From assembly GCF_964019385.1 (NCBI RefSeq), contig NC_088643.1, positions 1,319,355-1,383,354 on the forward strand: a stretch of 64,000 nucleotides of DNA. Direction: 5' to 3'. Below, one piece after another: positions 14,415-61,657 of this stretch. The translations under genes and the position numbers were made by a program. The number at the start of each line of letters is the position of its first letter. Position 1 is the first letter of the stretch. The notes beneath the pieces were generated by a model, which was not told the origin of the DNA, made no database searches, and worked only from the letters and a program-made list of their open reading frames with translations. Source of the stretch: Sycon ciliatum. Taxonomy: Eukaryota > Porifera > Calcarea > Leucosolenida > Sycettidae.

Positions 14415-14940
14415 CTAGGATTTTAACCTGAGTGTTAAGTGCCATCAGGAACGCGGCCATGATCACCCGATAGTGCAACATGGTCGGCGGTGATTAAAAC
14501 TTTGAAGCCAATGAAACAATAATATCAATGTTGTGTTGCTTTTGTGTACAATTATCTATTTTGATTTGATTTCCCCAATCACTTTAGTTTGATGACATGC
14601 ACGTTGACTAGCGAGTACGTTGTCGTGCCTCCAGGTGTAACGTCCCTGTTCCAGCGCTACGCGACAAGCGCCAAGCACGTGACGCATAGTACAGGCCCAG
14701 GCACGGCACAAACTACAGTACGGATCCACTACCGTGTTTCACAAACTACAGTACGGATCAACTACCGTGTTTCCCAAACTGCGTAGGTTCGTCGGGGAAG
14801 GTAGCACGTCGAGGGTTGACGCAAGAAGAAATTACAAATCCTACCAGTACCACCATACAAAAGGGATTTCCACTAGAGGTGCTGCCACATCACTCCAACC
14901 ACTTGCCTTGCACCTGAAGAGTCTTCAGCCTCAAAATCTG
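14415..14940 (+). other. Spacer between copy 1 and copy 2
   Basis: Array-derived non-coding sequence. Positions 14585-14596 (tagtttgatga) are the empty site of the retrozyme inserted at 26065. It includes a short direct repeat (acaaactacagtacggatc, about 14708 and 14741). Confidence 0.55.
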
Positions 14941-25830: not shown

Positions 25831-26083
25831 ATGCCCATGGCGGTAAATTATGTACTGGGTGTTTTTCCCATTAATTTTTTATTCTAGTCCAATACAACAT
25901 AATATCATCAATGTTTTGTTCCTTTTGTATTGAAACATTGACATTGACAAACTCGTTTTGAGTTGAGTTTGAGTTGATTTCTCTGATCACCACCTGTTCA
26001 GAACAATACCAATGTTGTATTGCTTTCGTGTTCAATTATCTATTTTGAGTTTCCGGAATCACTTTAGTTTGATGATACCCAAT

Positions 26084-26131
26084 GCTGTAGACAGCAATCT
26101 GTTTCGGCCATAAAGGCCTCATCAGTACAGC
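26084..26131 (-). ncRNA. Hammerhead ribozyme, type I (retrozyme unit 1)
   Basis: Read on the minus strand: stem I GCUGUA/UACAGC (6 bp); core CUGAUGA; stem II GGCC/GGCC with loop UUUAU; core GAAA; stem III ACAG/CUGU with loop AUUG; cleavage site GUC just before UACAGC. Every core position expected of the family is present, and all three helices pair perfectly. Confidence 0.95.
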
Positions 26132-26320
26132 TACGAGCTAAATAGGCCGAGTTACCAGCCATGGTGCAAAGGAGGCACCACAGACATTAAGGTAGCTCGT
26201 CGCTCTAGCGCCAGAGTGCTCAAACTACAAAAAGTAGCGGGCATTGCGCGATGCAGCAGCACTAGAGCAGCCTACTGAGAGTGCTCAACAAGGCGAAAGC
26301 CGAGGAGCGTGATACCCAAT

Positions 26321-26368
26321 GCTGTAGACAGCAAGCTGTTTCGGCCATAACGGCCTCATCAGTACAGC
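26321..26368 (-). ncRNA. Hammerhead ribozyme, type I (retrozyme unit 2)
   Basis: Same fold as unit 1. The differences fall only in loops: stem II loop GUUAU for UUUAU, stem III loop CUUG for AUUG. This fits selection for, or recent inheritance of, the folded core. Confidence 0.95.
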
Positions 26369-26439
26369 TACGGGCTAAATAGGCCGAGTTACCAGCCATG
26401 GTGCAAAGGAGGCACCACAGACATTATAGTTTGATGATA

Positions 26440-26837
26440 TGCATGTTGACTTGCCCGTACAAGTGTCTTTTTATACATGATGCTTATACACTATGATTTT
26501 TTATGATGATGATGATTTGGATAAAAACGATTCAAAGCCACTGCACTCAATGATTTTGTAATACTTGAAGTATAAATATAAGGATAATAGCTCTAACAGA
26601 GCGAAACAGTTGCTGTCCACAGACTTGAGTAATAATAATAATAATAATATACTTTCATACAAAACAAGCTCGATGATGATTCGATGATGATGATGATGAT
26701 GCACTTTGTGTTCACTTTCCTCTCTTTTTATTCTAATTGAATTTTGATGAATTGCATTTTTGCTTGCCCGTACAAGAGGCTGTTCCAAATGATATGATGA
26801 TAGGGAGCCTGGGACATGAGCAGCAATTCCTGATCGA
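26440..26837 (+). other. AT-rich, GAT/ATA-rich spacer
   Basis: Contains the phrase cttgcccgtacaag twice (about 26452 and 26762), a (TAA)n stretch and a (GAT)n stretch. The phrase also sits right of the BEL element (about 45926), so it belongs to a dispersed element of unknown type. Confidence 0.45.
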
Positions 26838-27391: not shown

Positions 27392-27434
27392 TAATAATAA
27401 TTAAACACACGGCGAGGAGACAACAATTTTATAA

Positions 27435-27702
27435 CCGCAATCAATAAAACTAGCTGAACCGACATTTGTGTACTTTATTCATGCAATGTAAAAAACGGTG
27501 GAGACGATGTGCAATAAAACGATGAAAACATGAAGAAATGGTGTACGGAAAAAATATGGATTCAAACAAGTTTTCGTACAACACTCATCAGGAATCGTCG
27601 TTGTACTAAAGGACACTGAAACAAAAATTGAACTATTAAGTATTATAGAAAATCTAAGTTAGAGAAATAACACTAAGAGCAACAACAGTGAAATTTACAA
27701 GT
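27435..27702. repeat. Left inverted repeat of the Penelope-derived element
   Basis: From ccgcaatcaataaaac to gtgaaatttacaag; reverse complement of 28993-29253 with few changes and one short indel. Confidence 0.88.
27559..27596 (-). ncRNA. Compact hammerhead motif in left inverted repeat
   Basis: Minus strand: stem I GAUUC/GAAUC (5 bp), core CUGAUGA, stem II GUG-UUG-UAC (3 bp with one G-U), core GAAA, stem III AAC-UU-GUU, cleavage-site U. Very short stem III is known from Penelope-like hammerheads, which work best as dimers. Core intact. Confidence 0.72.
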
Positions 27703-27823
27703 GTGATCAAAGCGAGAGCTGAACAAAGGAGAAAGGAAGGAAAGACAACGTGATAACACATAACAGCAGTACATTACACCTAGAACATTAACGGCCAAGC
27801 TTGGCCGCACTAAACACGACACG

Positions 27824-28990
27824 TTACTTGAACAATTTCAACCCAATTATACTATCTTTCTGTACACACAAATTAGGCTTGTACAGACGCTGATAGATAG
27901 CTTCCAACACTTTTAACTGTAGTCCATAACCATGACGACCACGGCACAATACAGTGAACGAAGAGTCGGAATACGCACCGCAACAATCAGGACTAGCCAG
28001 CAGATGATTGTACACTGAAGACTTGCTACCACGAAACCTAAGCACAACACTAACACTCTCACCGGCACTCTCACCATCACTCCCATCACTGCTCTCCGAC
28101 GCACTGCTCCCTCCGTCGTCCGTTCCATCCTCCGCTTCCTCTGTACTCTCTCTGTCTCGTCCATCCCGCCTGACCAGGTCCATTGAACTCAACTCGGCCG
28201 TCCCCCTGCTATCACGTCCCTCCTTTCGCCCTCGTCCGCTGAGTGCGTAGCTTCTGTTGTAGTTGGCTGTTGATCGTCTTGTTCTTTCAATTATGGGCTT
28301 GGATGGTGAATTAGTTGTGGTTGCTGTAGATTGCGTTGTTGGTGTTGGTGTGGGAGTTACTGATATGCAAGGTGGGTCTTTTTGAGTCGGCATTTGTAGT
28401 GTTAATGCAGCTGTCAGTGTTGCTCGCGGTCTGCCACTGGCAAGCTCCACCGCCGCAAGAACCGATGGCGGAGAATCAGGAGGAGGCAGTGGGACCGGGA
28501 TCGCAAGCGGCACCGCCTCAGCCAAAGCCGCCGGGGGCACTGACGAGGGAGCCACCGACGGCCGGAGCAAAGGCGACGACACACGCCGACCCGATGAGCC
28601 ACCACGCCCATTCTCCTCCACCACCGCCACCAACGACGGCGGAGCAAGCACAGTCTGTGAGCCAGGATCCGCGGGTTGTGTAGGCAACGGCTGTGTGGTT
28701 AATGGTTGTTTTCTAGGTCGCCCTCGCTTCGGTCTTTGTTGTTGTGCGCAAGGTGGAAGTATGTGACGTGGTGCGTGTTGTTTGATGCGTGCGTTCAGGT
28801 GCTGAACAGTCCTACGAACATACCGACTAGCGCATTGTCGGCATTCAAAGTTGTAAATAAGATGACTTAGGTGATGGGCTGGTAGGACATCCTTCCGCAC
28901 CGTAAACGCACGCATCGTCGTAAAGACTGGCACAAAGTGTACTGCGTAGTATGTTCGACGAACAACTGACTTGACTGCACTACAAACTTT
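27824..28990 (-). CDS. GIY-YIG endonuclease ORF with inserted disordered region
   Basis: From 28933 the frame gives 369 residues, and it stays open upstream to about 28990 (VRRTYYAVHFVP). Residues about 20-55 read SHLIYNFECRQC...RYVRRT...LNARIKQH, the first half of a Penelope GIY-YIG domain; YIG is Y-V-R here. The end reads YNHLLASPDCC...VLEAIYQRLYKPNLCVQK...LKLF, the second half. Between them lie some 240 residues rich in P, S, T, then acidic S/E/D. Near residue 70 there is an AT-hook-like KRGRPRK. No RT domain. Possibly a non-autonomous or captured endonuclease. Confidence 0.75.
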   Translation of the reverse strand, partial: KVCSAVKSVVRRTYYAVHFVPVFTTMRAFTVRKDVLPAHHLSHLIYNFECRQCASRYVRRTVQHLNARIKQHAPRHILPPCAQQQRPKRGRPRKQPLTTQPLPTQPADPGSQTVLAPPSLVAVVEENGRGGSSGRRVSSPLLRPSVAPSSVPPAALAEAVPLAIPVPLPPPDSPPSVLAAVELASGRPRATLTAALTLQMPTQKDPPCISVTPTPTPTTQSTATTTNSPSKPIIERTRRSTANYNRSYALSGRGRKEGRDSRGTAELSSMDLVRRDGRDRESTEEAEDGTDDGGSSASESSDGSDGESAGESVSVVLRFRGSKSSVYNHLLASPDCCGAYSDSSFTVLCRGRHGYGLQLKVLEAIYQRLYKPNLCVQKDSIIGLKLFK

Positions 28991-28992
28991 AG

Positions 28993-29253
28993 TCTTGTAA
29001 ATTTCACTGTTGTTGCTCTTAGTGTTATTTCTCTAACTTAGATTTTCTATAATAGTTCAATTTTTGTTTCAGTGTCCTTTAGTACAACGACGATTCCTGA
29101 TGAGTGTTGTACGGAAACTTGTTTGAATCCATATTTTTTCCCTACACCATTTCTTCATATTTTCATCGTTTTATTGCACATCGTCTCCACCATTTTTTAC
29201 ATTGCATGAATAAAGTACACAAATGTCGGTTCAGCTAGTTTTATTGATTGCGG
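28993..29253. repeat. Right inverted repeat of the Penelope-derived element
   Basis: Inverted counterpart of 27435-27702, ending ttattgattgcgg. Its hammerhead (29092-29129, plus strand) has GGAA in place of core GAAA. Confidence 0.88.
29092..29129 (+). ncRNA. Degenerate hammerhead in right inverted repeat
   Basis: Same stems as 27559-27596, but the second core segment reads GGAA instead of GAAA, a change at an invariant adenine expected to abolish cleavage. Confidence 0.6.
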
Positions 29254-29255
29254 AT

Positions 29256-29432
29256 ATAATAATAATACTCATAAAAAGTATTTGTATTTCACCTGATGAG
29301 AAGGCTTGAAAGTATACTTGTGAAGACAAAAACTTTCAAGATGTTTGTAATGAGCCTGAAGTGTGTCCTTTTTATGAGTATTATCGCATTTTTGTCTCAG
29401 AGGAAACTGATATAATAATAATTGTTATTATT
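29256..29432 (+). repeat. Second Penelope-like scrap with hairpin ends
   Basis: Between aatactcataaaaag (about 29267) and its inverse ctttttatgagtatt (about 29370) lies a 100-bp stretch with a hammerhead motif. ATA/ATT triplet runs flank it. Probably a pseudo-LTR fragment of another Penelope-like element. Confidence 0.55.
29288..29324 (+). ncRNA. Compact hammerhead motif in Penelope-like scrap
   Basis: Stem I UUCAC/GUGAA (5 bp), core CUGAUGA, a short stem II (GA/UU, loop AGGC), core GAAA, stem III AGU-AU-ACU, cleavage-site U. Core and stems I and III are sound; stem II is weak. Confidence 0.62.
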
Positions 29433-45956: not shown

Positions 45957-46362
45957 AAAAAAAAAGCCACCAAGGCCGCATGCACCTGGCCACGACAAAC
46001 GTACGCAAAAGCCAAATCACCGTAGAGAGGAGACATCGCGGTACACAGCACCGAAAACACCCAAGAGTGCACCTGGACTCGTAGGACGACCCCGCGTGAC
46101 GGTGTACTACATTGGAAATGTTGACCCGGACTGCGATGCGGATTCAATAGCTGAACACTGCAAGGCACAATGCGTATCTGTAGTACAAAGCGTCGTGTAC
46201 ACCTCCGTCCACTTTAAAACAGCCTCTGCTCGTATTACAGTCTTGGTCACGGACGCCAAGAAGGTCGCGGAAGAATCGTTCTGCCCTGATGAAGTTGGCC
46301 GTACTGTAAGAGAGTGGCGATTTGGTACAGAGGCCTGGGCTCTCAAACCCGTTAAAGCATAA
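45957..46362 (+). pseudogene. LINE ORF1 (5'-truncated)
   Basis: Read in the frame of VTVYYIGNVDPDCDADSIAE, which is open back to the A-run at 45956-45966 (KKPPRPHAPGHDKR). The end (AITEHCKAQ-like helix, REWRFGTEAWALKPVKA) fits the RNA-binding C-terminus of CR1/L2-type ORF1 proteins. The N-terminus is missing. Its TAA overlaps the ORF2 ATG. Confidence 0.65.
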
Positions 46363-46364: not shown

Positions 46365-49091
46365 GCTCAAACCACTGACCCACTCCCCTTGAACCCGCAT
46401 GCTCCAGCCTTTACACCATCGTCTCCTCTTCAACCGTCGGCCCCCGTAAGCTGTTCATATACCCACATAAAGGTTGGCCACATAAATATTTGCAGCCTTA
46501 GACACAAAACACACATTATTGCTAAGTTAATAGACCAACATGCCCTGGATCTTCTGGCAGTTACTGAAACGTGGCTTGACTCCAGCATCTCGGACAACGA
46601 GGTCTCGGTGCCGGGAGCAATTCTTTTCCGTCGTGATCGGCCGTGCGCTGAGGGCTGCTCATGCTTGTCCTCCTGCAGCCCCTGCAGGAAAGGAGGGGGA
46701 ATTTGCATGTACGTGAACGACCAAGTTAATGTGACTCCTGTCTTGACCCACTCGCATGCCAGTCTAGAATTGATGTGGCTCAGAACCGGCACAGTCAATG
46801 ATGGTGTTTTGTTCGGTTGCATATATCGGCCCCCATCCGAGCCAGTGGAGTACTGGACTCGCCTTGCCACAACCACAGAACAACTGGACAGCGAACATGT
46901 TGTATTATTAGGCGACGTCAATGTAGACTTCCTGCATCAGGCATCCAGCGTTTTCCAACACCTCAAGAACACACTTTTACTCCCGTGCGGGATGGCCAAC
47001 AAAGTCCAGGACGCAACCAGAATCACTGCCTCGACACGCACGTCGATTGACTGCATACTGACGAACATAGACCTCGTCACGTCAGCATCCGTTATAGACT
47101 GTGAGTTCTCAGACCATCGCCTGGTCCTCAGTACTGTCCCATTGCCCACAGCGGGCACACGGAACTCCGACACCGATGGTCAGCAACCAAGCAGACAACG
47201 AAGAGACTACTACCGAGGCTTCGACGCAGACCGCTTCTGCGGTATGTTGTTGTCTTCCAATCTTCATCACTTTGCAACCACTGACACTGACCTGATGTTA
47301 GACGAATGGGCCGAGAAATTTAATACTGCACTTGATATTGCAGCGCCTTATGTGCCCAGGAAGCGACCGAAGCGGAATCGGAAGACTTGCCCTTTCATGA
47401 CCAAGGCTCTTCTTGACTTGATCAGGGAACGCAAATCAGCCTTCAAGAAGTTAAAAGCAGCCAACTTTCGTGACATGGTCATAATGGCGCAGTTCAAGAG
47501 ATTACGTAGTCAGTCCAACAAATTGTACCGTCATCTTCAGAATCGTTACTTTGCGGATCGGTGCAGGACGTATGAACGGGAACCTCGACAGTTCTGGAAA
47601 ATATTGAACACGATCACAAAGCGTACGCCACAGAGGCAAACAGTTACTATCCCAACTGAGAGACTAAACGATTACTTCCACGCTATTGTCACCAATAATC
47701 ATGCTACCTATGATCTGCCAATGGGTCCGGCTAACTCTACGGACCTCAGCACGTTCGAGGCGGTAACTGTCTCAGAAGTGAAAAGGCTAATCAGTGCCCT
47801 CCAGAGCCGCAAAGATCCTGGCCCGGACGGAATTATGCCTTTTTTGCTAAAGGTATCGAAAGACGTAGTCGCCCTTTCACTTACCATTTTGTACAACACT
47901 TCCCTCTCTTCTGGACACTTTCCATCCCGGTTCAAAATTGCCCACATCACCCCGATATTGAAGTCAAAACAAGGCCCCCGTAATTGCCCTTCCAATCACC
48001 GCACGGTGTCTCTAACATCTATTCTCGCCAAACTCCTTGAGCAGCTCGTGTTCTCTCGTCTCCAGGTGTTTTTCCAAGAACGTTGCCCATTCCATGAAGA
48101 TCAATTTGGTTTCCGGAAGCACCGGTCGACCGAGCAACTCCCCACGAAGGTAACGAATGATTGGCTGCTAGCCCGCGAAGCGGGTCTGCATACAGCTGTT
48201 GTTTGCGTTGACCTGAAGAAGGCGTTTGATACCGTGCAACACCAGCAACTTCTCATCGCAATCGCGGCCGTGGGTATTTCTGGCAGAGCGCTGGATCGGT
48301 TGCAGTCATACCTCCGTGGACGGCAGCAGCGCGTGGTTACCTGCATCGGAACGTCTCCTCTGGTACCAGTTACTAGTGGCGTACCTCAAGGCACCATTCT
48401 GGGCCCTGTGCTCTTCAATTTATATGTGCGGAAGCTGCCGCTCACAGCTGATGCTCTTTCCTGCAAGCTGCCGATGTTCGCGGATGACATGACGCTGTAT
48501 GCCAGTAGAAGGTCGCCAAATGAAGCTGTCGGTGCCATCAACAAGGTACTTTCAGTGCTTGCTCTAGATCTTGCGGACCTAGGGTTGTCAGTCAACTCTG
48601 CCAAAACTGTCGCCATGTTCATTTCCAAACTCCCCCTGCACCTGTCTGTTCCTGTGATACTCAACGATCAGGTATTGACCCGCGTTACCAGCACCCGAAT
48701 CCTGGGGGTCATCATTGATGACCGCCTAACGTGGTCGCCTCACATTGACTTTGTAATTCGCAAGACATGTGCTAAGATTGGCGCTCTTCGTCGGTCCTTT
48801 CGGCAATTGAGCAGGAAGGCCAGGAGGCAATTTATTGTATCAGTCATTCTACCTGATCTTTTGTACTGTTGTTCGTGTTTTGTAACGAAGCTGTCCGCTA
48901 AGGACCGCCAAAGGCTCTCTACTGTGTTCCGCCGTGCTGTGCGAGCTGCCTGTGGTGCTAAGTCACAGGACGACATCACGCCATTATTGACCACATTGGC
49001 GATTTATCCATTTGAACACTATAATTACTCAATCTGCGGACAGAACTGTTTCGTCCTTTGTGGACTCGTCAGCGCAGCACAGAGGAAATGA
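46362..49091 (+). pseudogene. CR1/L2-like LINE ORF2 (endonuclease-RT), interrupted near its end
   Basis: About 884 native residues. An APE-type endonuclease comes first: GHINICSLRHK, LLAVTETWLD, CIYRPPS, LLGDVNVDF, SDHRLV. RT follows: AHITPILKSK, SNHRTVSLTSILAKLLEQLV, DQFGFRKHRST, VCVDLKKAFDTV, GVPQGTILGPVLF, FADDMTLYAS. Then the RT thumb. At 49014 a retrozyme insertion replaces the tail; the last 25 or so residues to the stop at 49091 are retrozyme-encoded. Endonuclease and RT motifs themselves look intact. Confidence 0.92.
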
Positions 49092-49261
49092 GGCCGAACC
49101 TGATAGCATTGGAAATAAAAATTTCCAATCAGGCCCGAACGTACCTTGCCAGAGTGCTCAAACTGACAAGTCAGTGAGCTCTGCATAACGCAAACAGCAA
49201 AGGCACTACCCCACGCAAGAGTGCTCAACTGCTACAAGAGCAGGAGCGAACACTATAATTA
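49014..49261 (-). mobile_element. Hammerhead retrozyme, single unit, in LINE ORF2
   Basis: Insertion 49028-49247 (220 bp) between 14-bp duplications gaacactataatta (49014-49027, 49248-49261). It holds one canonical hammerhead on the minus strand, and agagtgctcaa boxes at about 49151 and 49219, as in the retrozyme at 26065. Sequence otherwise differs, so it is a second family. Confidence 0.9.
49034..49078 (-). ncRNA. Hammerhead ribozyme, type I (retrozyme 2)
   Basis: Minus strand: stem I CUGCG/CGCAG, core CUGACGA, stem II GUCC/GGAC with loop ACAAA, core GAAA, stem III ACAG-UU-CUGU, cleavage site GUC. Compared with 26084-26131 the stem I and II bases have changed on both sides with pairing kept (GGCC/GGCC to GUCC/GGAC). 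Confidence 0.94.
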
Positions 49262-56794: not shown

Positions 56795-56872
56795 TAATGC
56801 TGGATGACATAAATGTGCCAGCATTTGAAAAAAATTGGGCCCTCTATTGTAGTATTGAATAGTGTCTTCATG

Positions 56873-57398
56873 TATACCCTGGTGTTGATGTGTCATCCTT
56901 GTTGTCAATACCGCTACCCGCATCAGTATACCCTGGTGTTGATGTGTCATCCTTGTTGTCAATACCGCTACCTGCATCAGTATACCCTGGTGTTGATGTT
57001 TCATCCTTGTTATCAATACCGCTACCTGCATCAGTATACCCTGGTGTTGATGTGTCATCCTTGTTGTCAATACCGCTACCTGCATCAGTATACGCTGGTG
57101 TTGATGTGTCATCCTTGTTGTCTATACCGCTACCTGCATCAGTATACTCTGGTGTTGATGTGTCATCCTTGTTGTCAATACCGCTACCTGCATCAGTATA
57201 CCCTGGTGTGGATGTGTCATCCTTGTTGTCAATACCGCTACCTGCATCAGTATACGCTGGTGTTGATGTGTCATCCTTCGTATCAATACCGCTACCTGCA
57301 TCAGTATACCCTGGTGTTGAAGTGTCATCCTTGTTGTCAATACCGCTACCTGCATCAGTATACCCTGGTGTTGATGTGTAATCCTTGTTGTCGATTCA
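56873..57398. repeat. 54-bp minisatellite, about 9.7 units
   Basis: Units of 54 bp (tataccctggtgttgatgtg...gctacctgcatcag) in near-perfect tandem. As 54 is divisible by 3, all units keep frame and give false open frames of 18-residue repeats in several frames on both strands. It lies in intron 1 of the OTUD3-like gene, about 25 bp before exon 2. Confidence 0.92.
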
Positions 57399-60635: not shown

Positions 60636-60649
60636 TGGCGGTAAATTGT

Positions 60650-60697
60650 GTACTGGGTGTTTTCTTGCTCTCTGTTCTTTGCGTATTTTCATTGTAG
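60650..60697 (+). other. Array breakpoint: copy 4 post-F sequence joined to copy 5 B-C intron end
   Basis: Up to gtactgggtgtttt it follows the post-F region (compare 25850-25866). From cttgctctctgttct it follows the intron end before exon C (compare 17071-17103). Exons A and B and the CT tract are skipped. Confidence 0.75.
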
Positions 60698-60977
60698 GCG
60701 TTTATACCTTTCGTATCTGGACAGTGTCCATTTCTTCCGGCCAAAGCAGTTGCGTACTCAAGTGTATTATGAGCTGCTTATCGCCTATAAGGACTATGTA
60801 GCAAAGCGAGGCTTTGTCGCTGTTAACCTTTGGGCATGCCCTCCTGGGAAAAACCAAGACTATATTTTCAACTGTCATCCACCTGGGCAAAGGATACTCA
60901 CACAACAGCTTCTAAAACCGTGGTACAAGACAAAGCTGGACAGTGCAGTTGCTCGAAAAGTTGTTATCAAGTTTCGC
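60698..60977 (+). pseudogene. p300/CBP-like HAT exon C, copy 5 (intact exon)
   Basis: 280 bp, fully open: LYLSYLDSVHFFRPKQLRTQ, AYKDYVAKRGFVAVNLWACP, IFNCHPPGQRILTQ, LKPWYKTKLDSAVARKVVIK, FR; donor gtaagt. The best-preserved exon C, keeping the Trp and Tyr that correspond to p300 W1436 and Y1467. It shows the ancestral reading frame damaged in copies 1-3. Confidence 0.9.
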
Positions 60978-61657
60978 GTAAGTGCTCTAAATCAACTCAT
61001 TTTCGCTGGCAATTTTATTTCGCTGATTCCGCCGCTTGGTGCCAATTGGCCAAAGTTAACCGCAGGCCAAAATTTGTCATCGAGGCAAATGATGCATAAT
61101 TCAGCCATGGCTGCACGTGAGGGCAACAACTATTAAACGATCTTTTCTAAATCGGCCAAAGTTTCTCACCGGCCAAAATTTGTTGATTTCCAGAGTAGCA
61201 AGAGTAGTTACCTGCCACCGATACCTCATCCAAAGGGTATCAAACAACATGGGAGTACATACAGATTATCCAAGTGTAACGAAAGGGTATCCAACGCACA
61301 CATGTATAAATGTACACTACATAGTACCTTCCGTTACAATTTGAAACTTCATGACAATTTGAATCAACTTCATGACATCTTTCTAATGCTTCTGATCTGT
61401 GAATCTATGTGAATGAGCATGCAGACATTTGTATGGATAAGTAGTAATTCCGCACGGTACATTTCAAACAAGGATATTGTACTATACTGTTCAAACTAGC
61501 TACACGCCGTACTGCTCTAGCTTATAGGTTGTTCTCCGATAAATCGACTGTTAGCGTAGCAGTTAACCGTTAAGGTGAAAACCGTAGCCGTTTGATCCCT
61601 ATTGTTATACTGGCAATCTAATGTTGTTTATCCTTTCTCACTTTTTTGATCTTTCAG
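60978..61657 (+). other. C-D intron, copy 5
   Basis: About 680 bp; resembles copy 1 more than copies 2/3 (shares the shortened segment around acgaaagggtatccaacgc). Confidence 0.55.

Follow-up and report, generated by a model that had tools for sequence, protein, structure and literature searches.

A 349-bp segment lying between two copies of a short sequence in the calcareous sponge Sycon ciliatum raises the question of whether an element that encodes no protein has moved there by retroposition and, if so, from which template and by which enzyme. We analysed this segment within the window, by which we mean the whole 64,000-nucleotide stretch of contig NC_088643.1, and against the rest of the genome. 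The segment is very probably a copy of a non-autonomous, protein-less metazoan non-LTR retrozyme that would move by the cycle proposed below, a reading built on hammerhead anatomy, dispersion, target duplications, a fixed start, spread ends and star-like arrays, each of which was seen in the sequence. Feature coordinates are collected in Table 1.

Table 1. Positions in the window of the retrozyme insertions, their target sites and their hammerheads (a slash marks the junction).
Feature	Position	Strand	Remarks
Paralogous unoccupied site	14518..14618	+	sequence alignment
Family 1, left target duplication TAGTTTGATGATA	26065..26077	+	last 5 bases TGATA also match unit
Family 1, fixed RNA 3' end	26076-26078	minus	..GGG/TA
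Family 1 retrozyme insertion	26078..26426	minus (RNA sense)	349 bp = 1.47 units of 237 bp
Type I hammerhead, copy 1	26084..26131	minus	predicted cut between 26090 and 26089
Type I hammerhead, copy 2	26321..26368	minus	predicted cut between 26327 and 26326
Family 1, right target duplication	26427..26439	+	13/13 identical to left
Third hammerhead family, 5'-truncated piece	26590..26631	+	42 bp; ends ACTTGAGTA before (ATA)n tract
Family 2, left target duplication GAACACTATAATTA	49014..49027	+	14 bp
Family 2 retrozyme insertion	49028..49247	minus	220 bp, about one 226-bp unit
Family 2 type I hammerhead	49033..49078	minus	RF00163 30.1 bits, E 0.0021 for window, below gathering 34
Family 2, right target duplication	49248..49261	+	14/14 identical to left

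A preliminary description of the window had reported an insertion of this length between 13-bp duplications, which is what we find, the two duplications being identical throughout. It had also reported tandem units, which is accurate for one full unit of 237 bp but not for the second, only about half of which is present (unit starts at 26076 and 26313). The empty paralogous site that it had placed near 14585 is real, and both of its flanks align: on the left, 26002-26075 matches 14518-14595 at 84.6% identity over 78 columns; the paralogue then holds a single copy of the target, and to the right of the duplication the match picks up again and runs as far as 14618 (34 bp at 14585-14618, 85.3%, E 1.75e-4). 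Of the copies of a duplicated block, one contains the insertion and another, at 10-14.6 kb, has the site empty; the match to the third copy in the window ends at 60663, short of the insertion site. These blocks (10-14.6 kb, 21.5-26 kb and 58-64 kb) share ~89-94% identity, and a KAT11-type acetyltransferase exon (60645-61136) lies approximately at the point where similarity to the other blocks is lost. This exon and a Pao peptidase A17 support an animal host from within the window; to our knowledge, Pao elements are animal-specific. The same family 1 insertion, with matching flanks, occurs at two more loci of the contig, ~75 kb and ~314 kb off, and is therefore older than the segmental duplications that produced these copies of the locus (99.1% identity over 3237 bp and 95.9% over 2198 bp). 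To call the locus direct evidence of a retroposed circular-RNA-type element, as had been done, is fair for the insertion here, but for circular RNA the evidence is indirect.

The two minus-strand type I hammerheads, spaced 237 bp apart as previously described, were recovered by a scan for the conserved core and three helices. Both have the core CTGATGA..GAAAC, with GUC at the predicted cut site and helices I, II and III of 6, 4-5 and 4 bp. The scan returned three matches in the window, with summed stem lengths of 12, 14 and 15, compared with a single match (sum 10) in 60 simulated windows generated under a first-order Markov model; it places hammerheads on one strand only of each unit. The stretch common to both units (26073-26189 and 26310-26426, 117 bp) contains 3 differences, all of which had been assigned to loops. 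That assignment stands for 26114, in loop II, but not for 26136, which is in outer helix I as folded, nor as a statement about every difference, given that 26098 alters the C of the helix III CUUG cap that is usual in the 103 intact copies. Checking the hammerheads against Rfam (RF00163, RF00008) gave a divided result. No hammerhead match reached the gathering score anywhere in the window, whereas a permissive RF00008 search found both family 1 units, with E-values that vary with the length searched (0.0032 and 0.041 in 701 bases; 0.29 and 3.8 in the whole window). Taken alone, Rfam support for the family 1 hammerheads is weak; our calls are based on anatomy, on copies and on paired changes. 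Nine hammerheads of the genome, three of them from Penelope-like elements, were compared, and most positions in helices I and II vary by paired changes, as do two in helix III; in one of the nine, the Penelope copy in L035, helix II did not form as parsed. Across the loci examined, 103/113 family 1 copies and 85/107 family 2 copies retain an intact core by a strict pattern, which for family 2 required CTGACGA and so scored CTGATGA copies as not intact. Units fold more stably than their shuffles (z = -2.0 for family 1 and -3.6 for family 2), a modelled stability that agrees with published descriptions of retrozyme circles as highly self-paired. In the lowest-energy fold of the whole family 1 unit the hammerhead is partly paired elsewhere, and the helix III loop of family 2 has only 2 nt, so that its hammerhead may need a dimer to work. 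The minus-strand RNA is predicted to cleave itself.

The preliminary description had set against its own reading an internal duplication without mobile copies elsewhere, and a search of the genome finds such copies in abundance. A 354-bp query gave at least 90 matches in ~40 clusters on many contigs (among the best 40 of 1302 first-look candidates), the copies having flanks of their own, and a 19-base signature of the 3' end has 673 exact sites (348 + 325) in the 538-Mb genome, in which the reversed control pattern has 0. The ORF list, at its cut-off of 150 aa, contains no ORF within 26078-26426, and no ORF with reverse transcriptase (RT) and GIY-YIG domains was found there; the insertion is at most a passenger of a Penelope-like element. 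Family 2, with at least 71 genome matches among the best 40 of 538 candidates, is alignable with family 1 throughout, and the two families have in common the boxes GTTGAGCACTCT and AGTTTGAGCACTCTGG as well as the end ATTGRGTA; in the window the family 2 insertion sits inside an endonuclease-RT ORF beginning at 46356. The piece of a third family matches L025, where that family's hammerhead stands whole, at 95.3% over 43 bp. Two more type I hammerhead-like cores (L022 and L051), with helix III ACGUACGU and a different 3' sequence, appear from their sequence to be further families of this genome. We also observed that GAGCACTCT occurs twice per unit in families 1 and 2 and is conserved despite their divergence, perhaps through recognition by an enzyme. 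A small, highly paired unit with a ribozyme could also suggest captured copies of a viroid-like RNA that is copied RNA from RNA. Such an RNA is poorly matched by hundreds of dispersed copies, by related families with target duplications and by hammerheads on a single strand of each unit, and we give this origin very little credence.

By its sequence characteristics the element fits among the known metazoan non-LTR retrozymes, as described in PMC7229834 (in part). As in those, each unit has a type I hammerhead, no coding region and a stable self-paired structure, and mobile copies are dispersed. Reported units span 170-400 nt, with 220-240 in corals, compared with 237 and 226 bp here; reported arrays are tandem from dimers upward, and ours reach ~6 units; and reported duplications exceed 4 bp, those in the window being 13 and 14 bp. 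Family 1, at 52.7% GC, departs from the reported tendency towards less than 50% (PMC7229834, in part). Plant LTR retrozymes are likewise non-coding, with paired hammerheads and a circular RNA model, but have type III hammerheads, a span of ~700 bp, LTRs and 4-bp duplications (PMC7229834 and PMC7761336, both in part). Penelope-like elements share a hammerhead near the site where reverse transcription starts, AT-rich targets, tandem or partial-tandem copies and internal initiation, but encode an RT, usually with GIY-YIG, where the retrozyme unit codes for nothing (PMC7761336 and PMC11167929, both in part); their hammerheads are minimal, and that of the retrozyme has a fuller helix III (PMC7761336, in part). 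Schistosoma W elements and SM-alpha are similar by description: they are repeated sequences that contain type I hammerheads and show indications of mobility, and one possible target duplication is described (PMC8490949, in part).

For the comparison of junctions, family 1 was represented by L001-L047 (39 clusters retrieved by position, the cluster of the window itself and eight overlapping loci) and family 2 by L048-L077 (30 of 40 scored places). Arrays with a 25-base flank in common with an earlier one, including a few in simple repeats, were dropped, which left 41 and 30 arrays. The RNA 3' junction falls at one unit phase (-4 to +3), 13-14 nt past the ribozyme cut, in 38/41 family 1 arrays and 30/30 family 2 arrays, with L017 supplying two exceptional pieces and L039 the third. 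The opposite junction is scattered across the unit, compatibly with a uniform distribution (KS test, p = 0.16 for family 1 and 0.45 for family 2). Array lengths range from 0.4 to 6.3 units in family 1 and from 0.12 to 6.45 in family 2, a distribution biased by the choice of loci for similarity to the query. Exact duplications of at least 9 bp flank 20 of 38 family 1 arrays and 15 of 30 family 2 arrays, compared with 39/739 and 20/578 mismatched flank pairs used as controls; at 12 bp or more, the corresponding counts are 16/38 and 8/30 arrays against 13/739 and 14/578 pairs. By the flank method, no duplication was detected in 6/38 and 7/30 arrays, respectively. Every target ends in A (68/68) and 64 of the 68 end in TA, and the last 20 target bases are 84% AT compared with 54% in the flanks. 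The TA is preceded by T in 26/30 family 2 targets, where the circle would template A; pairing with RNA beyond the TA is thus not the rule in this family, and microhomology as the sole rule for the start was rejected.

Variation among units bears on how arrays grew. We sorted variant sites, relative to the family consensus, by the number of units carrying them in arrays with at least two full units. In family 1 (24 arrays), 35 variants are present in all units, 65 in one unit and 2 in between; the same classes hold 8, 40 and 1 variants in family 2 (11 arrays). When units were shuffled among arrays 300 times, all-unit sites numbered 5.0 on average (maximum 10) in family 1 and 0.56 (maximum 3) in family 2. 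Several all-unit variants are found in two or more arrays and hence mark subfamilies. In family 1, units are closer within arrays than between them (distances of 0.0098 and 0.0168, respectively); this does not hold for family 2 (0.0135 and 0.0124), where one diverged array, L061, weighs heavily. Star-like arrays of this kind would be predicted if one unit were copied several times and the copies then decayed privately, and together with the fixed RNA 3' junction and the spread 5' junction they support the retroposition reading of the preliminary description. Satellite DNA that grew and spread at the DNA level, by unequal exchange or extrachromosomal circles, would account for tandem units and dispersed copies, but it sits badly with one fixed and one spread junction, with target duplications and with the few variants of intermediate frequency. 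We regard it as highly improbable, and array growth at the DNA level was rejected on the junction phases and the unit-variant pattern.

The retrozyme cycle that we propose would begin with read-through transcription of a genomic copy. Cleavage after GUC by the hammerheads would divide the RNA into units of 237 nt, and a host RNA ligase would close a unit into a circle. An AT-rich target would then be nicked, leaving a 3' end in TA, and a reverse transcriptase would begin at one internal RNA site, 13-14 nt past the cut-and-joined junction (..CATTGGG/TA in family 1, ..GATTGAG/TA in family 2, the slash marking the start). Target-primed copying would continue from there and make as many as about six circuits of the RNA, and the other end would be joined wherever synthesis stops, leaving a duplication of ~13-16 bp. 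Self-cleavage, circularisation of the RNA and the identity of the enzyme are the steps that we infer. Of the fixed start past the cut and the star-like arrays, both measured here, PMC7229834 (in part) has only a model of target-primed circle copying; there, priming of the circular RNA by the DNA target or by a small RNA, with a LINE or Penelope enzyme, was proposed, and the template and enzyme of animal retrozyme reverse transcription were left as a hypothesis. From hundreds of similar copies in one genome we now have a fixed site of initiation, a rule for the target and arrays of star-like form, and with these the hypothesis becomes a defined assay, with one RNA circle, one nicked AT-rich target and one expected start base. 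In the literature searched, mostly without subscription papers, we found no survey of junctions or unit variation like the present one, and we do not claim priority.

The same element could keep its fixed start and use no circle at all if the template were the uncleaved linear multimeric transcript of a genomic array. Arrays are present in the genome and could be read through, and copies of young, near-identical arrays would look homogeneous too. For Penelope of Anolis in vitro, moreover, the dominant substrate was RNA that had not been cleaved, and insertion still took place with hammerhead mutants (PMC11167929, in part), so cutting and circles need not be required. Mixed arrays, however, should pass on mixed patterns, and in the 16 arrays with at least three full units, the only ones in which an in-between class can exist, 21 variants are in all units, 74 in one and 3 in between. 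We judge a linear template improbable.

For the enzyme step alone, our best candidate is a Penelope-like element, which we favour slightly. In Anolis, the Poseidon enzyme nicks AT-rich DNA, and its reverse transcription begins at internal sites that lie 3' of its own hammerhead and have no homology to the cut DNA (PMC11167929, in part); by analogy the retrozyme junctions appear to obey the same logic. A bolder and more tentative idea, to which we give somewhat less than an even chance, is that animal retrozymes parasitise internal initiation of the Penelope type: the RT of a Penelope-like element would recognise a short site past the joined hammerhead junction of a unit-length circle, prime at an AT-rich nick and roll round. 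If true, one step would account for the fixed start, the multi-round arrays and the TTGRG/TA end common to otherwise diverging families.

Several retrozyme loci do have Penelope-like neighbours. The flanks of L004/L011, L013, L033, L035, L047 and L074 encode peptides resembling the C-terminal part of a Penelope-like endonuclease, an assignment that we presume partly on familiar motifs, and some of these loci have a minimal hammerhead core. Against Pfam GIY-YIG, the intact ORF in L080 matches, and no match was found for the L074 piece, the L035 piece or the window ORF at 27824-29032. The two intact Penelope-like ORFs, in L079 and L080, have no hammerhead in the 4.2-4.3 kb examined. One Penelope 3' end occurs at 199 places in the genome, 77 of them directly before TATATA; in the genome listing it is often found in inverted pairs, many ~130-160 bp apart, suggesting inverted terminal copies. 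A retrozyme 3' end in common with the L035 Penelope was considered and dropped, as 27/40 matches start only from query base 13 onwards, outside the common string; L074, one of the 13 matches beginning at base 1-4, proved on reading to be without the retrozyme 3' string. The Penelope elements examined thus do not clearly have an end in common with the retrozyme.

A LINE-type endonuclease-RT enzyme could instead move the same element in the manner of a SINE. LINE insertions commonly have duplications of 13-16 bp and AT-rich targets, a habit that the retrozyme targets fit, and all 150 of the scored RVT_1 candidates of the genome matched, many with long open frames. Yet the retrozyme end is absent from the 3' ends downstream of eight RT groups, each represented by one copy, and an internal RNA start is reported as peculiar to Penelope elements (PMC11167929, in part). 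We consider a LINE-type enzyme rather unlikely. A single ATTGAGTA was found in L083, ~900 bases past the ORF stop and beyond an AAATAAA-like tail.

Some further observations concern neighbouring sequences. At 27429-29259 of the window, the minus-strand ORF at 27824-29032, which resembles by its motif the endonuclease part of a Penelope-type element, lies between inverted 273-bp repeats (95.6% identity), each holding, by eye, a minimal hammerhead-like core (27591, minus; 29097, plus). L078, on the small contig C291, has a GIY-YIG match but was rejected, as its resemblance is to a bacterial UvrC-like gene; that contig of the assembly would be from a symbiont or a contaminant. A tandem array of a 54-bp unit (9.6 copies, 95%) occupies 56872-57392 of the window and is open in three listed frames. 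Strings like ACTCAATCT, which resemble the first cDNA bases of family 2, stand alone beside AT-rich tracts in L015, L034, L035, L036 and L043 and are possibly aborted copies.
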